DNA of 23,625 bases from a virus: positions 1 through 23,625 of IMG/VR virus record IMGVR_UViG_3300025141_000771, one strand, 5' to 3'. A model generated the notes under the pieces. The model saw only the letters and a list, made by a program, of their open reading frames with translations. It did not search any database and was not told the origin of the DNA. The position numbers and the translations under genes were made by a program. Positions 3,960 to 23,625 of the stretch are shown in pieces (positions within the stretch are counted from its first letter, which is position 1; the number at the start of each line of letters is the position of its first letter).

Positions 3960-4694
3960 ATGAAAATACTTATTGAAAATTGGCGGAAATTTCTTGCCGA
4001 ATCAAAAGATGGCGTAGCTGACAAAATAAAAGAAGTCAAATTTAATTCAACCCTCGCCCTATCTGTTTTTAGGGACGAGGGTACTTTAACTGAGGCGGAA
4101 GTCGGCGCGTTGGAATATGAGGTTAGCCTGGCTGAAAATCCGAACGAAGAAGTTGTAATGGGCTTTTACGAATCCCTGTACGCCGGCGGACGAGCGGGAT
4201 TTTTATCTCCCTACTCCACAGATGAACTTAGAATGATGGATTTATATAAGCTGAAAGGGCGCAATGCGGGATTTGCCATCAAAGATGGTGACGATATCGT
4301 CAGCGTCCACAATAATTCTAACTTATCCGGATTGGCAAACGAATTTATGAGAAAAGCAAAAGAAGTCGGCGGCACAAGGCTGGATCATTTTGATGGCTTT
4401 TTGAGTGGTTTATATAGAAAGTACGGATTCACAGATGTTTACGAGATTTATCAATGGGATGAGCAATATGCTCCCGAAGAATGGAGTTTCGAAAAAGTAG
4501 ACATTATGAATCCGAAAACCAGCGTATATGCACAAGCCTTAGATTTGCTTGCCTATCGGGATCCAAGTGTTTTACCAAATGAATTGGTGGAAATTGAAGC
4601 TGAAGATGATTTAATGCTTGACATCAATCCAAATTTAAAATATAATAACTACAAATATGGTCGCCCCGACGTGATCATGAGAAAATTAGCTTAA
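3960..4694 (+). CDS. GNAT-like protein with possible capsid-targeting N-terminus
   Basis: A 244-aa protein. Residues about 100-165 (GFAIKDGDDIVSVHNNSN, LANEFMRKAKEVGGTRLD, HFDGFLSGLYRKYGF, then YQWDEQYAPEEW) look like the C-terminal half of GNAT-fold acetyltransferases found in phages, but the classic acetyl-CoA R/Q-x2-G-x-G/A loop is not obvious, so activity is uncertain. The N-terminus MKILIENWRKFLAES is set apart. It is a short amphipathic helix ending in Leu12-Ala13-Glu14-Ser15, an L-x-E site like those cut by T4-type prohead proteases. A similar N-terminus occurs in the gene at 22452. This suggests, as inference, a protein carried in the capsid. It starts 6 nt after groES with only a weak AGAAGG signal. 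Confidence 0.82.
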   Translation: MKILIENWRKFLAESKDGVADKIKEVKFNSTLALSVFRDEGTLTEAEVGALEYEVSLAENPNEEVVMGFYESLYAGGRAGFLSPYSTDELRMMDLYKLKGRNAGFAIKDGDDIVSVHNNSNLSGLANEFMRKAKEVGGTRLDHFDGFLSGLYRKYGFTDVYEIYQWDEQYAPEEWSFEKVDIMNPKTSVYAQALDLLAYRDPSVLPNELVEIEAEDDLMLDINPNLKYNNYKYGRPDVIMRKLA

Positions 4695-13686: not shown

Positions 13687-14012
13687 TGATAGATTATGGG
13701 AATCTTATTAAGAAGATTTGTTTTGAAAGCACAGACAAACTCCACGCTGATCTGAAAATTCGTTTACACTATGATGATCTTAAGATCCGCGAATTTTTTA
13801 ATGATGTAATATCTGGCTATGTGAGTAGAAATGAGCATATTTTAGCTTTTGTTGAAGAGCTAAAAGAAAAGAAAGCTATGTCAAACCCCAGACGAAATAA
13901 AATTAAACGAGCGAGATTGAAAGAAAAAGAAATTATAAAACAATTTGGTTTAGATAAAAATGAAATAGAAAATATATTTGATATTATAGAAAAGGAGCAT
14001 AAAGATTTATGA
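13683..14012 (+). CDS. Hypothetical helical protein (109 aa)
   Basis: No function recognised. The N-terminal half (LIKKICFESTDKLHADLKIR, then LHYDDLKIREFFNDVISGYV) and the C-terminal basic-to-acidic helices (NPRRNKIKRARLKEKEIIKQ, then FGLDKNEIENIFDIIEKEH) resemble, from memory, a small protein family seen in marine myoviruses. The basic stretch near 68-85 could bind nucleic acid. The ATG overlaps the IMPDH-like stop and the stop overlaps the next ATG (ATGA at 14009), placing it at the end of the metabolism operon. Confidence 0.75.
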   Translation: MMIDYGNLIKKICFESTDKLHADLKIRLHYDDLKIREFFNDVISGYVSRNEHILAFVEELKEKKAMSNPRRNKIKRARLKEKEIIKQFGLDKNEIENIFDIIEKEHKDL

Positions 14013-14239
14013 TAAGTTGCGCTAAAGAGTGTTTAAAAAACCAACAAGGCTGTAGAGAGAGGCGATGTCGATTGTGGATCGACTATGGCGAAGATTTTAA
14101 TTGCACGGCCGTTGCTGTAAACAGCAACCCTGAAATGACATTAAGCGAAGTTTCTAAGCGACTAAATATAAGCATCGTAAGGGTAAAACAGATTCAAGAC
14201 GCAGCCTTACAAAAATTAAAGAAAATATACGATTACTGA
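14009..14239 (+). CDS. Cys-rich protein with sigma-70 region 4-like helix-turn-helix
   Basis: A 76-aa protein in two parts. Residues 4-32 hold five Cys (Cys4, 8, 15, 20, 32) around basic residues, consistent with a small zinc site. Residues 42-71 (EMTLSEVSKRLNISIVRVKQ, then IQDAALQKLKK) match region 4.2 of sigma70 factors, where TLEEVAxxLGxTxERVRQI and the final ALxKLR helix read the -35 element. No region 2 is present, so it is not a full sigma factor. It may be a transcription co-regulator in the manner of small phage sigma-like proteins. It is the last gene before the ACTATTTATA element at 14249 and the acidic paralogue pair. Identification of the HTH is good; function is inferred. Confidence 0.83.
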   Translation: MISCAKECLKNQQGCRERRCRLWIDYGEDFNCTAVAVNSNPEMTLSEVSKRLNISIVRVKQIQDAALQKLKKIYDY

Positions 14240-14247
14240 AATAAAAG

Positions 14248-14258
14248 ACTATTTATAT
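14248..14258 (+). promoter_or_regulatory. GACTATTTATA element, copy 1
   Basis: GACTATTTATA lies 8 nt after a stop codon and 33 nt before the ATG at 14292. Related elements occur at 20202 and 22439. It could be a phage-specific promoter element, since it opens a new gene block after the sigma-like gene. It is not a forward T4 late box: TATAAATA would read on the other strand. Confidence 0.4.
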
Positions 14259-14291: not shown

Positions 14292-14969
14292 ATGAGCAAG
14301 GGCAAGAAACTTTTAAACGAAGATACTATTAAACGATTCATGAAACTGGCCGGAACTGAAAAGCTTTATGAAAATGTGCAGCTTGAAGAAGCTGAAGAGC
14401 TTGAAGAAGCCGAAGAGCTTGAAGAAGCTGAAGAGCTTGAAGAGGGCGAAAAGCTTGAAGAGGGCGAAAAGCTTGAAGAACAGGTACCGGGACCACCGGA
14501 AGACGAAGACGAAGCCGCCATGGCCGCAGTCGATGATGTCCCACCGGTCGACGTAGAAGGCCCGCCGCCCGAAGCTATGGAGCCAGAAGTCGAAGCAGAC
14601 CCTGCCGTAGTTGATGCGGTGGAAGCCATAATCACTGCCGTTGGCGATACCGCCTCTGCGTACGGAGTTAAAGTCCAGGTCACGGACGAGGATGAGGCCG
14701 AAGAGCCACTCGCAGATGTACCACTCGGCGAGCCTGCTATGCCCGAGCCCGGACCGGATGCACTTTTGGACGCAGACGCAGACGAAGATGAAGAAGGTCC
14801 ACTTCCTCCGATGGCAGAGGCAAAACGTCACGCCGCACAACAAGAACTTTTTATGGAAGAGTTGGCTACGCGCGTCGCCAATCGCATTAAAAGAGAGCAC
14901 ATTGTTGAACAAGTCACAAAACGCGTTGCTCAAAGATTGCAAAATGCAAAGAGACGCACCAAAAAGTAA
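14292..14969 (+). CDS. Acidic repeat protein A, possible prohead core protein
   Basis: A 225-aa protein in three parts. The N-terminal module KKLLNEDTIKRFMKLAGTE (5-23) is shared with the next gene. The centre is extremely acidic and Pro/Ala-rich, opening with six-residue repeats of the type LEEAEE (about 31-63) followed by LEEGEK. The C-terminus (about 185-225) is a basic helical segment (ELATRVANRIKREHIVEQV, then KRVAQRLQNAKRRTKK). Each repeat offers an L-E-E followed by Ala or Gly, like the (L/I)-x-E sites cut by T4-type prohead proteases. I infer a scaffold or core protein; no homology search was possible. TAGGAG at 14279-14284 gives the start. The tandem 18-nt repeats make length variation likely. 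Confidence 0.85.
   Translation: MSKGKKLLNEDTIKRFMKLAGTEKLYENVQLEEAEELEEAEELEEAEELEEGEKLEEGEKLEEQVPGPPEDEDEAAMAAVDDVPPVDVEGPPPEAMEPEVEADPAVVDAVEAIITAVGDTASAYGVKVQVTDEDEAEEPLADVPLGEPAMPEPGPDALLDADADEDEEGPLPPMAEAKRHAAQQELFMEELATRVANRIKREHIVEQVTKRVAQRLQNAKRRTKK
14381..14480 (+). repeat. Tandem 18-nt repeats (hexapeptide) in acidic protein A
   Basis: Five full 18-nt units beginning GCTTGAAGAA or GCTTGAAGAG and a 10-nt partial sixth. The first three units differ by one base (GCT/GCC); the last two are identical to each other and encode LEEGEK instead of LEEAEE. The period keeps the reading frame. Confidence 0.95.
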
Positions 14970-14982
14970 AAGAGGTTAAAAA

Positions 14983-15459
14983 ATGACTGACAAGAAAAAG
15001 ACACTCCTAAATGAAAGCACCGTACGTCGATTTATGGCATTGGCCGGTGTAGAATCCTTAGTTAATCCATTCTTAGGTAAAGTAAATGAAGCTTTTGATT
15101 CACCAGAAGAGCCCGTGGAAGAAGGTTTTGTCATGTCGACGGTTGATGCCGCTGGTGGCGCTGATGTCGCTGGTGACGCTGATGTCGCTGGTGACGCCGA
15201 TGTCGCTGAAATGGTCCCCGAGCAACAAGAGCTTGAAGAAGCAGAAGAGCTTGAAGAAGCAGAAGAGCTTGAAGAAGCAGAAGAGCTTGAAGAAGCAGAA
15301 GAGCTTGAAGAGGCCCCCATCTCAAAATCTTTGGCAGAATCAATTCTGCGACATATCCCCAATCTTGAAGTCGTCGACGACGAATCCACATTTAAAACTA
15401 CAAGAAAATCTGATATACTACAAGAAGTACTCAGAAGAGTTAAAGAGAAACTTTCTTAA
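14983..15459 (+). CDS. Acidic repeat protein B, paralogue of A
   Basis: A 158-aa protein built like its neighbour. The N-terminal module KKTLLNESTVRRFMALAGVE (5-24) aligns with that of protein A. An acidic middle follows, first with Asp/Ala hexapeptides (ADVAGD, about 54-75) and then LEEAEE repeats (about 83-110). It ends with a helical C-terminus (LAESILRHIPN, then ILQEVLRRVKEKLS). The repeated L-E-E-A motifs resemble prohead-protease sites. As with protein A, a core or scaffold role, or packaging inside the head, is inferred from composition, pairing and motifs. The ribosome site AGAGGTTAAAAA at 14971 is nearly the same as those before 15471 and 18629. Duplication of one ancestral gene followed by repeat expansion explains the pair. 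Confidence 0.85.
   Translation: MTDKKKTLLNESTVRRFMALAGVESLVNPFLGKVNEAFDSPEEPVEEGFVMSTVDAAGGADVAGDADVAGDADVAEMVPEQQELEEAEELEEAEELEEAEELEEAEELEEAPISKSLAESILRHIPNLEVVDDESTFKTTRKSDILQEVLRRVKEKLS
15142..15207 (+). repeat. 18-nt repeats encoding (V/A)D(A/V)AG(G/D)
   Basis: A degenerate unit GTTGATGCCGCTGGTGGC, two identical units GCTGATGTCGCTGGTGAC (15160-15177, 15178-15195) and a 12-nt partial unit. This is a second hexapeptide repeat in the same gene, different in sequence from the LEEAEE repeat but with the same 18-nt period. Confidence 0.9.
15231..15312 (+). repeat. Perfect tandem 18-nt repeats in acidic protein B
   Basis: Four identical units of GCTTGAAGAAGCAGAAGA and a 10-nt partial fifth ending GAG. 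Perfect identity points to recent slippage or recombination. The unit differs from that of protein A mainly at the GCA/GCT codon, so each array has expanded on its own. Confidence 0.95.
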
Positions 15460-17084: not shown

Positions 17085-18614
17085 ATGGACATTAATAAAC
17101 TAAACGAAAACTATCTCGCATTCAAGTCTCTTGGCTTAAATGGGTTTTTAAAAATAATTGAAGAAGAGATCAATCGGTTTGGCACTCTTGTAACTGAGGC
17201 CGAAGCGCCCATAGAGGCAGATGAAGCATCTGAAGAAAGAGTGATCAAGTTTCCAGCAATTAAAATTACCGAGAACTGGGGCGTGAAAAACACCGAAGAC
17301 CGCGCGATCCTAGAAACTTTAATGAAAAATGTTGAAGGCGGCACCATCGAAGCAAAATTAGCCAGTGTCAACGACTTCATGAATTATCAACCGGGCTTAC
17401 CAGTCCCCAAGATTCTTTCAAACTTAATCTTTTTGCAGATATTTTCAAACATTATTGAAGAATACAACGCTTCAACGGCTGGTTTTCTTTTCGAAGCATT
17501 TTTGGCTGGTTTGTTTTTGGGCGAACAAGTTCAAGATCCAGAGCAGGTCGGTGCTGAAGCTGGTTCTCTTCCAATTGAGGACGTGAATTTGATGATTCGT
17601 AGAGCAATTCAGGCCGGAGATGAAGCAGATGTAGAGGAAGCAATCGTGCCTTATAGTTTAAAGGTACTTAGTCCAGGTACGGACTTGAAAGGGAGTTTTA
17701 AAAACTTGGTTGACTTTTTTGCAGGGGGCCGATCTTCAAAGATTGTTTATTTGGTTGTAACAAAAATGGGCAAAGGCACGCTGGCCTTCAATGAATTTGA
17801 TATTACTCCTGAAAACTTTTTAGATTATATTGGTCACGAAGAATTTAAAATGCAACATAGAATTGAACCAGTAGAGTTTACGTTTGGTGTTGACAGCACT
17901 CCCGCTGCCAATGTAAAAATTACCGCTGGCCCAGCAATGAGAGCTAAAATTGTTAATGGCGAAATTATTCCTAGGCCACCTACCAGACCAAAAGGTCGAT
18001 TTATGCAATACGATGAAATTGAATCAGAAGAGATTATAACACAAAAAATTAATCCCGCGGCCATTTCTGATGAAGTTGCTCTATCAAAAGTCACAGAAAG
18101 CGGAGAAGTTCGTCTAAACCCGGAAGACCTGTTAATAGCCGGTGAAACATATAAAGTTAATGCAAGGGTTGGAGAAAAAGAATATACAACAACTGGACAA
18201 AGAACTGGAACTTCAATGAAATTATATGGCAAGGAAGAGGATCTCTACAGCGCTCTAAAAGCAATGGAGAGAGGCCCAGAATTTTGGGAAGCAATTAAGG
18301 AAAGCCCAGGCTACGAACAGAGAAAGCAATTTCACATTGCACCCGGCTACTTTAGAAAGCAATCTAGAGAGGTTGGCGTGCTCGATTTGTACCCGCCAAA
18401 ACTTATACAAATTGCAAATCAATATGCAAAAGATTTAAGTAATAACTTGATTGCTATTTATAATTCTTTGAGCAGCCTTTCTGTTAATATTAATAAGTTT
18501 TTCCTTGACGTGGATGACGGCGAGATGAGCAGAAATCAACACGGCATGGGTGCCGTCAAAGATGCTGGAAGGTTAAACTATCACACCAAAAAAGCAGTTG
18601 AAAAAACTGAATAA
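17085..18614 (+). CDS. Large hypothetical protein, possible nuclease-like core
   Basis: A 509-aa protein not assigned to a family. Residues 125-212 contain FLFEAFLAGLFLG (Glu137), PIEDVN (Asp166) and YSLKVLSPG (Lys193). The order Glu-helix, Asp, then x-x-Lys on a beta strand is the layout of PD-(D/E)XK nuclease folds, and I recall similar SLK-x-L-(S/T)-P-G proteins in marine phages; the match is suggestive only. Beta-rich segments follow (IVYLVVTKMGKGTLAFNEF; VEFTFGVDS), and the C-terminus is helical with many Asn and Ser. The N-terminus is acidic around residues 38-52. A weak AAGGGA lies 11 nt before the ATG. It stands between endolysin and groEL, with 14 nt to the latter. Confidence 0.85.
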   Translation: MDINKLNENYLAFKSLGLNGFLKIIEEEINRFGTLVTEAEAPIEADEASEERVIKFPAIKITENWGVKNTEDRAILETLMKNVEGGTIEAKLASVNDFMNYQPGLPVPKILSNLIFLQIFSNIIEEYNASTAGFLFEAFLAGLFLGEQVQDPEQVGAEAGSLPIEDVNLMIRRAIQAGDEADVEEAIVPYSLKVLSPGTDLKGSFKNLVDFFAGGRSSKIVYLVVTKMGKGTLAFNEFDITPENFLDYIGHEEFKMQHRIEPVEFTFGVDSTPAANVKITAGPAMRAKIVNGEIIPRPPTRPKGRFMQYDEIESEEIITQKINPAAISDEVALSKVTESGEVRLNPEDLLIAGETYKVNARVGEKEYTTTGQRTGTSMKLYGKEEDLYSALKAMERGPEFWEAIKESPGYEQRKQFHIAPGYFRKQSREVGVLDLYPPKLIQIANQYAKDLSNNLIAIYNSLSSLSVNINKFFLDVDDGEMSRNQHGMGAVKDAGRLNYHTKKAVEKTE

Positions 18615-20229: not shown

Positions 20230-20517
20230 ATGGCGGCTGATGAATATGGCACGGAAGTAAAAGTCACTTTTGCCGAAATTGGTGGGAAGTTTGATCAAAT
20301 TATGCAAAGTGTAGATACCATTAAAGAAAAGCAAGAAGAAATGGCCGATGACATATCGCACATTAAAGAGGCCGTCTACCATCCAGATGAAGGCCTCTAT
20401 GCTCGCCTGAAAGCCTTGGAAAATTGGCAAAAAACCTCGACGCGCCTTATTTGGATTATAATAAGCTCTGTCGTAGGTATGGCCGCCGCCGCCGCTCTTA
20501 AAATGTTTAATTTCTAA
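20230..20517 (+). CDS. Coiled-coil protein with C-terminal TM segment, holin/XhlA-like
   Basis: A 95-aa protein. The first about 65 residues look like a coiled coil or helical stalk (VTFAEIGGKFDQIMQSVDTI, KEKQEEMADDISHIKE), then AVYHPDEGLYARLKALENWQ, and finally one hydrophobic span (LIWIIISSVVGMAAAAALKM, about 73-92). Stalk, H-x-x-x-G-L-Y/F-x-R-L and a C-terminal TM segment is the layout of XhlA-type hemolysin/holin-associated phage proteins. This makes a lysis helper for the amidase plausible, but the link is from pattern only. Ribosome site GGGGG (20217-20221). It is the last gene before a weak terminator. Confidence 0.78.
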   Translation: MAADEYGTEVKVTFAEIGGKFDQIMQSVDTIKEKQEEMADDISHIKEAVYHPDEGLYARLKALENWQKTSTRLIWIIISSVVGMAAAAALKMFNF

Positions 20518-22451: not shown

Positions 22452-23625
22452 ATGCAACAATTATTCGAAGGCTGGCGAAAGTACACACTCCTTTCGGAAG
22501 AACAACTTTTAATTGAAGGTCGTATCGAGGACGTCAAAAAGAAATATCCTCGCATTCCGAAAATTATTGATTATCTTGTAAGGCGAGACCCTTCTGGTAG
22601 CCAAAAATATCTTGCTTGGGCCGCAAAACAAACTGAAAAAGCCCGTCAATATCGCGCCCAACACACTCCACCAGGAACTGGCTTAGACGTCGCACAAATA
22701 GAATCTTCATGGGTGCCCGAACTCACAGATAAAATTGAGAAGTTCCACAAATGGAACCAGCGGCTGCCAAAATTTGGTTTTTCAAAGGACATCAATTCTT
22801 ACAAAGACTTTGAATCGCTTCGAGACGCCATCAGCAAACTCGAAGAAGAGGACACGCAAGCCGCAAAAAGAGCAGAAGAGAAGAGAGCAGCTTTCAGCGA
22901 AGCAGAAGTTATCGATGACACCGAAGATTATTTCATCGTTAGGCCAATGAGCACTCAGGCGTCTTGCTTTTTTGGGCGCAGCACGCAGTGGTGTATCTCC
23001 GCAGAGCGAAGCCACAATTATTTCGATAGTTACACAAATGAAGGCAAAATGTTTTATTTTGTATTTATGAAGCGGCTTGATTCTGACAATAAATATAAAA
23101 AATTAGCATTTGTTCTCGACAATGAATACGACCTTGAAAGTGTTTTTGATGCAGAAGATAGCGAACTGGGCAGCACAGAGATGACAGAAGCGTTTGTACA
23201 AAATCTACTACACCAAGGGGTCGCAGAAGGCGCTTGGATGGCGTATTTGTGGTATGATGGCAATAGGTTTGCTGATGAAGCAACCGAAAAGGATAAAGCG
23301 TCATATAATCAGGCGCTTGAAAGACTTCAAATTGATTTGCCTCCCACTCCCGAAGACGAAAAATCAAAACACGATTATGAGTGGGTGACACGGTTTGAAC
23401 GGGCTAATGAAAAAATACGCGACGAAGCAGATGCCGTTCTGTACGGCATCGTGGAACAAATGCGCGATCACGCCTATGAAAATCCTGCTGGTCCAACTGA
23501 AGCAGATTACCAGAAGATCCAAGATGCATTTGATCAAAGCGCCGAGCACTCACACGTCTATTTTGACGAATACGAAGAGGGCAAATATTACTATAATGGT
23601 GGAATGTCTTTTGATTTCTCTGATT
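22452..23625 (+). CDS. Large unfinished protein with WRK N-terminus and WCIS domain (partial)
   Basis: An open frame of 391 codons with no stop before the window end, so the 3' end is missing. The N-terminus MQQLFEGWRKYTLLSEEQLL resembles that of the gene at 3960 and contains Leu20-Ile21-Glu22-Gly23, an L-x-E-G prohead-protease-like site. A segment about 31-58 (KYPRIPKIIDYL, DPSGSQKYLAWAAK) and one at 175-205 (GRSTQWCISAERSHNYFDSY, then TNEGKMFYFVF) are, from memory, typical of a recurring uncharacterised phage domain. An acidic helical stretch (130-150) lies between. No ribosome site is seen; GACTATTTATA ends 2 nt before the ATG. Possibly a virion or core-associated protein. Function unknown. 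Confidence 0.82.
   Translation, partial: MQQLFEGWRKYTLLSEEQLLIEGRIEDVKKKYPRIPKIIDYLVRRDPSGSQKYLAWAAKQTEKARQYRAQHTPPGTGLDVAQIESSWVPELTDKIEKFHKWNQRLPKFGFSKDINSYKDFESLRDAISKLEEEDTQAAKRAEEKRAAFSEAEVIDDTEDYFIVRPMSTQASCFFGRSTQWCISAERSHNYFDSYTNEGKMFYFVFMKRLDSDNKYKKLAFVLDNEYDLESVFDAEDSELGSTEMTEAFVQNLLHQGVAEGAWMAYLWYDGNRFADEATEKDKASYNQALERLQIDLPPTPEDEKSKHDYEWVTRFERANEKIRDEADAVLYGIVEQMRDHAYENPAGPTEADYQKIQDAFDQSAEHSHVYFDEYEEGKYYYNGGMSFDFSD

Follow-up and report, generated by a model that had tools for sequence, protein, structure and literature searches.

A pair of very acidic proteins in marine T4-type phages: candidate internal head proteins with a predicted prohead-protease tag

Two adjacent genes, here called ACIDIC1 and ACIDIC2, are best explained as late genes of a marine myophage of the T4 type, encoding accessory proteins of the core, or internal head proteins, that are targeted to the capsid and each carry an N-terminal tag that would be cut off by a protease (probability roughly 0.6). 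The two proteins would most likely be functional analogues, not homologues, of the internal proteins of T4. The prohead reading is drawn from the T4-type head genes of relatives, from an invariant site in the tag and from a motif common to scaffold genes, and it is from these that we infer cleavage, entry into the prohead and the task of the acidic body there. The family to which the genes belong is large and undescribed, and searches of public family libraries returned no match to it.

The window (the whole stretch of DNA analysed, one entire IMG/VR record of 23,625 bases) carries on one strand genes for DnaB, class II RNR, DnaE, dUTPase, IMPDH, amidase and GroEL, named by family search or by recognition from sequence; no head genes lie in this 23.6-kb fragment. 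The reading frames, the motif and the composition bear out the pair as described in the first-pass annotation: ACIDIC1 (14292–14969, + strand, 225 aa) and ACIDIC2 (14983–15459, + strand, 158 aa) are adjacent, have LLNE(S/D)T(I/V)(R/K)RFMxLAG in common at their N-termini, contain 28% Asp plus Glu each and hold five LEE(A/G) units apiece.

ACIDIC1 is laid out as an N-terminal tag, the LEE repeats, acidic disordered linkers, a single middle helix and a long basic C-terminal helix. Its AlphaFold model is an elongated molecule with helices at residues 10–19, 23–62, 104–123 and 174–224 and disordered acidic linkers; the first of these helices starts at the predicted cut, and the second runs through the repeats. 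The predicted prohead-protease site is the LNE of LLNE↓D (14313–14321, + strand; the arrow marks the cut), with Leu at P3 and Glu at P1. It is followed by TIKRFMKLA (14325–14351, + strand), an amphipathic helix and candidate docking or targeting element in which FMKLA is invariant in alignment A2. The C-terminal helix (14811–14963, + strand; pattern ELxxRVAxRI...QVTKRVAQRL) was assigned from conservation and from the model, where its mean pLDDT is about 90, and E176, V195 and R198 within it are nearly invariant in alignment A2. ACIDIC2 begins with a tag like that of ACIDIC1, in which the LNE of LLNE↓S (15007–15015, + strand) is the predicted site and the small P1' residue is canonical, and continues through a hypervariable middle to a conserved C-terminal block of its own (15331–15456, + strand). 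This block carries SLAESILRHIPNLE..DILQEVLRRVKEKLS, is near-identical in four genomes and is distinct from the C-terminus of ACIDIC1.

Profile-profile comparison detects homology between the two proteins over only about 30 N-terminal columns (E=4e-12), and a profile of the family C-terminus finds ACIDIC1 (1.3e-6) and not ACIDIC2 (best domain E 0.73). The proposed paralogy thus holds for the N-terminal columns, whereas the C-terminal parts differ. The LEE units, which had been read as stacked cleavage sites, do exceed residue shuffles, with six [LI]xE[small] matches in ACIDIC1 (1.6 expected, p 0.0025) and eight in ACIDIC2 (1.6 expected, p<0.0005). However, they are 18-bp minisatellites, with 5.6 copies at 91% matches in ACIDIC1 (14380–14480, + strand, (EELEEA/G)n) and 4.7 identical copies in ACIDIC2 (15227–15311, + strand, (EELEEA)n, 100% matches). 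With the repeats removed the counts drop to 1 versus 0.8 expected in ACIDIC1 and to 3 versus 0.7 in ACIDIC2, so that the excess in ACIDIC1 is accounted for by its minisatellite. Another 18-bp tandem array, of DVAGDA repeats, is present in ACIDIC2 at 15144–15209. Across the family described below, LEE is absent from 28 of the 60 members and three tandem units occur in none (0/60), the stack being confined to the window and the relatives closest to it. The LEE stack arose by recent expansion of the repeat, and the proposed head role does not require it.

Family members were collected by scanning marine virus contigs for back-translated IRRFMKLA, which yielded 60 distinct proteins of the ACIDIC build. 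They have a short basic start followed by [LI]L-x-E-[S/G/N/A/T]-[T/E/Q]-IRRFMKLA, a body with 24–38% acidic residues in most members, and usually RVAxRL within a helix at the C-terminus. The pair itself had no match in Pfam, PHROGs or the PDB, and tblastn of 50,697 phage records returned no homologue; a 32-residue consensus gave only chance Bacillus matches in phage records (E about 6). Profile A2 found no match in immuto, Mel-JY01, RM378, LR756508, T4 or S-RSM4, a comparison that lacked a positive control.

The genes occupy a conserved slot, in the order IMPDH, sigma4-like, ACIDIC, membrane protein, ClpP-like, P509 and GroEL. Among the 60 loci, IMPDH was found in 54, a 109-aa gene in 55, the sigma-70 region 4-like gene in 58 and the ClpP-like gene in 50 (Pfam CLP_protease, 2.9e-30); P509, GroEL and a small membrane-type gene were each found in 31, and 31 is also the number of loci whose downstream sequence is 3 kb or longer. 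Both acidic genes are present in three close records (G001, G002 and G003 hold ACIDIC2 orthologues, the hypervariable middle being even basic in G002), and in more distant relatives one acidic gene alone fills the slot. The clade of the window has kept the acidic genes, and ClpP is absent from the slot. In some relatives a protein with AHEYVHL (HExxH) lies directly behind the acidic gene, which is the slot of ACIDIC2 in the window, with the ClpP-like gene one or two genes beyond (for example L161:5209-5850, L021:4476-5108 and L132:1278-1976); a derivation of the ACIDIC2 C-terminus from this protein, as a relic, was rejected (hhalign probability 3%). The sigma-70 region 4 type gene, which in most of the 60 loci is directly upstream of the acidic gene, encodes in the window (14009–14239) a protein of 76 aa whose start is rich in cysteine and which may be a late transcription factor. 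P509 is a conserved 509-aa protein (17085–18614) with a late motif of its own 12 bp upstream, and several homologues have a possible L-x-E site ahead of the conserved domain; its structure model was unreliable (mean pLDDT 46) and was left unused.

The head genes of the group were identified in relatives. The 185-kb record G010 has an ACIDIC homologue in the same slot, far from a head module in which a terminase, the gp20 portal, small genes, an S77 prohead protease, a gene in the scaffold position and gp23 follow one another (PF03420 protease 6.7e-33, gp20 2e-72, gp23 7e-70). Of 10 further related records with a head module, 8 also have PF03420, which was found in none of the first nine fragment records, all of them without head modules. 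The protease and major capsid genes named in the first-pass annotation are present in relatives and missing from the window, and the records examined did not show the protease gene of the clade nearest to it. Scaffold genes were labelled by where they lie, by their composition and by homology to the gene that occupies this position in cultured relatives. The scaffold has its own gene, adjacent to that of the major capsid protein, so the acidic pair is not the main scaffold; its assignment as gp22 was rejected, the place immediately before the major capsid gene being taken by a different gene in the group.

Scaffolds of the group end almost always in R[MWF][KRQ].LAG[IL] (for example L134:4061-5488:-), and this ending is still conserved in Flavobacterium phage immuto and Microcystis phage Mel-JY01. 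With a post-hoc regular expression, the matches in each genome fall almost entirely at the C-terminus of the scaffold and the N-terminus of the acidic protein. A profile built from scaffolds only ranks the two acidic genes first and second in the window, at 8–9 bits, but shuffled ORFs give a mean maximum of about 8–12 bits, no lower, and a docking motif shared by scaffold and acidic proteins was rejected as not significant by profile.

The Leu and Glu of the predicted cleavage site lay outside the IRRFMKLA search pattern, and in this flank of the 60 members Leu is found in 59/59 and Glu in 59/59 relatives, with S, G, N, A or T at P1' and P2 free. The family form, LL[NT]E↓[SGAN] near residue 10, matches that of candidate sites in the group's own protease (N-terminal DLL[TN]E↓[ASG]EK), major capsid protein gp23 (LL[RK]E↓[AS]) and scaffold (SL[SN]E↓[AV]), and in T4 itself the sequences of gp23 and gp24 contain FLTE↓A and ELLRE↓S, respectively. 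The P1' residue of ACIDIC1 is atypical, being Asp in the window and Asp or Arg in its clade. In T4, gp21 cleaves after L/I-X-E, and the internal proteins bear tags of 10–19 residues with targeting-sequence roles (PMC9026906). A second [LI]xE stands behind the helix in 53 of the 60 members (24 expected), and N-termini throughout G010 hold 32 [LI]xE against 10 expected, a 3-fold excess. Past residue 35, the family has 59 [LI]xE[small] matches where 71 are expected, unlike the scaffold control with 608 against 268 (2.3-fold). It is this lack of internal enrichment that distinguishes a tag removed once or twice from a protein designed for shredding, and at family level it gives no support to the proposal that the stacked LEE serve that end. 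The proposal of a protease-cut prohead protein is retained with a different site, the conserved one being LLNE and not LEE; the head genes of relatives and the late-like motif argue in the same direction. Alternatively, LLNE could be a helix-capping feature.

Upstream of ACIDIC1, by 44 bp, lies ACTATTTA (14248–14255, + strand), a late-promoter-like motif of the form ACTA[TA]TTA. The window has five such sites on the coding strand (3901, 14248, 17073, 20203 and 22440) and none on the other, and the genes behind them are ORF 3960 (MKILIENWRKFLAE↓S), ACIDIC1, the 509-aa gene, a 95-aa gene at 20230 and ORF 22452 (MQQLFEGWRKYTLLSEE). All 60 family members have the motif within 100 bp upstream. This count is no independent test, as the motif was first noticed ahead of acidic genes and the genes are homologous. 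Independent tests were provided by the strand asymmetry, 87:2 coding to non-coding in five genomes (G010, G011, G013, G014 and G016; p 1e-23), and by the scaffold genes, 56 of 77 of which have the motif upstream compared with 59 of 532 among all genes. The sheath, tube and neck genes likewise follow it, as do genes of the capsid targeting sequence (CTS) type, and dnaB, RNR, DnaE, IMPDH and GroEL are not among the genes listed with it. By analogy with the late promoters TATAAATA of T4 and NATAAATA of cyanophages (PMC2984593), ACTA[TA]TTA is read as the probable late promoter of the group, from which the acidic genes would be expressed late. The T4 element TATAAATA was found upstream of 0/66 acidic genes, and no description of ACTA[TA]TTA was met in the literature searched. 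Many unrelated proteins begin with one of two stretches that close on L/I-x-E, MKLLxENWRxxLxE or MKxTKxQLxxIIKE. They are encoded in the window (3960–4694 and 22452–23624) and on the reverse strand of G010 at about 24.6–33.2 kb (L131), and these N-termini are candidate capsid targeting sequences.

Under the preferred explanation, a tag of about 10–35 residues, made up of LLNE and the TIRRFMKLA helix, would dock the acidic proteins into the assembling core. The S77 (gp21-like) protease would cut after LLNE, and probably again after the [LI]-x-E just behind the helix, freeing inside the head the rest of the protein, an elongated and very acidic body that ends in a basic helix and may serve in core spacing or as a co-packaged protein. 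Against this explanation stand the lack of head genes in the window, so that the link to the head runs through relatives, the position of the acidic gene, which is far from the head module and has ClpP-like genes for neighbours, joined in some relatives by genes of the HExxH type, and the Asp or Arg at P1' of ACIDIC1 in the window clade. If it is correct, a widespread family gains a location in the head interior, a processing enzyme and a predicted cleavage site. A broader and tentative extension, which we consider possible and rather doubtful, is a group-wide code for capsid import, composed of ACTA[T/A]TTA and at least three kinds of tag ending in L/I-x-E (LLxE-TIRRFMKLA, MKLLxENWRxxLxE and MKxTKxQLxxIIKE) on many unrelated proteins, with RFMKLA imitating the scaffold R[MW]KxLAGI so that both would dock to the same partner. 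If the preferred explanation holds, its rules would likewise predict dozens of further proteins packaged by abundant uncultured phages of the ocean, and some of these proteins may enter the host by injection, as T4 internal proteins do.

A sacrificial prohead core protein, cut to peptides at the stacked LEE in the manner of T4 gp22, gp67 and gp68, appears unlikely. T4 gp67 is, by its sequence, likewise small and acidic with L-x-E sites, and is degraded by gp21 (PMC9958956); the five LEE(A/G) units of each window protein would suit such a fate, yet the family carries internal sites at or below chance, and the LEE stack, young and of minisatellite origin, is seen as a tandem array in none of the 60 members. 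The scaffold of one relative (L045:52-243) contains eleven copies of the same 18-bp unit as the window pair, encoding EELEEG and reading LEEGEELEEG in series, and this striking coincidence keeps a clade-specific version of shredding alive.

We judge it distinctly improbable that the acidic proteins are late but not part of the virion, and that through LLNE...FMKLA they bind the product of a neighbouring gene (the ClpP-like protease, the membrane protein or the chaperonin) as its adaptor, substrate or inhibitor. The tight synteny with these genes, and the Pfam support for ClpP, would be accounted for in this way; the window clade nevertheless retains the acidic genes without ClpP in the slot, the L-x-E-[small] form is that of candidate prohead sites in the same phages, and P509 lies directly behind its own copy of the late motif. 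Functionless low-complexity ORFs with a motif arisen by chance would fit the richness in repeats and the lack of a database family, and are refuted by conservation, given 60 distinct relatives with an invariant motif, a conserved slot and the upstream motif.

The internal head protein reading can be set against known systems. Head proteins of SPN3US and phiKZ have long N-terminal propeptides that are removed by proteolysis at several x-x-E sites (PMC5694885); they differ in an A/S-x-E specificity, and we know of no homology to the acidic proteins. The scaffold of the group itself resembles the acidic proteins in the late-promoter-like motif upstream, an acidic centre and L-x-E-[small] sites, in a C-terminal R[MW][KRQ].LAG[IL] that is loosely like RFMKLA[GN] and not significantly so by profile, and, in one relative, in an EELEEG repeat; it differs in being encoded apart, next to the major capsid gene, and in its dense L-x-E sites. 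T4 gp67, the gene for which is located between those of gp20 and the protease, is comparable in being a core protein that is small, acidic and provided with L-x-E sites in a helical N-terminal part, but has no homology to the acidic proteins and is degraded, whereas their internal sites are not enriched. In T4, gp22, gp67 and gp68 are degraded and the internal proteins only trimmed (PMC9026906, PMC9958956). From IPI–IPIII and Alt the acidic proteins differ in the tag, LLNE↓STIRRFMKLA, and in being a single conserved family with a very acidic body in a fixed slot far from the head genes; homology was rejected, with no Pfam or PHROGs match and nothing found in T4 by profile A2. They resemble these T4 proteins in a short tag at the N-terminus that closes with an L/I-x-E site of the gp21 type, a predicted one in the acidic proteins, in the occurrence of unrelated bodies behind similar tags, and in the T4-type S77 protease of the phage group that encodes them.
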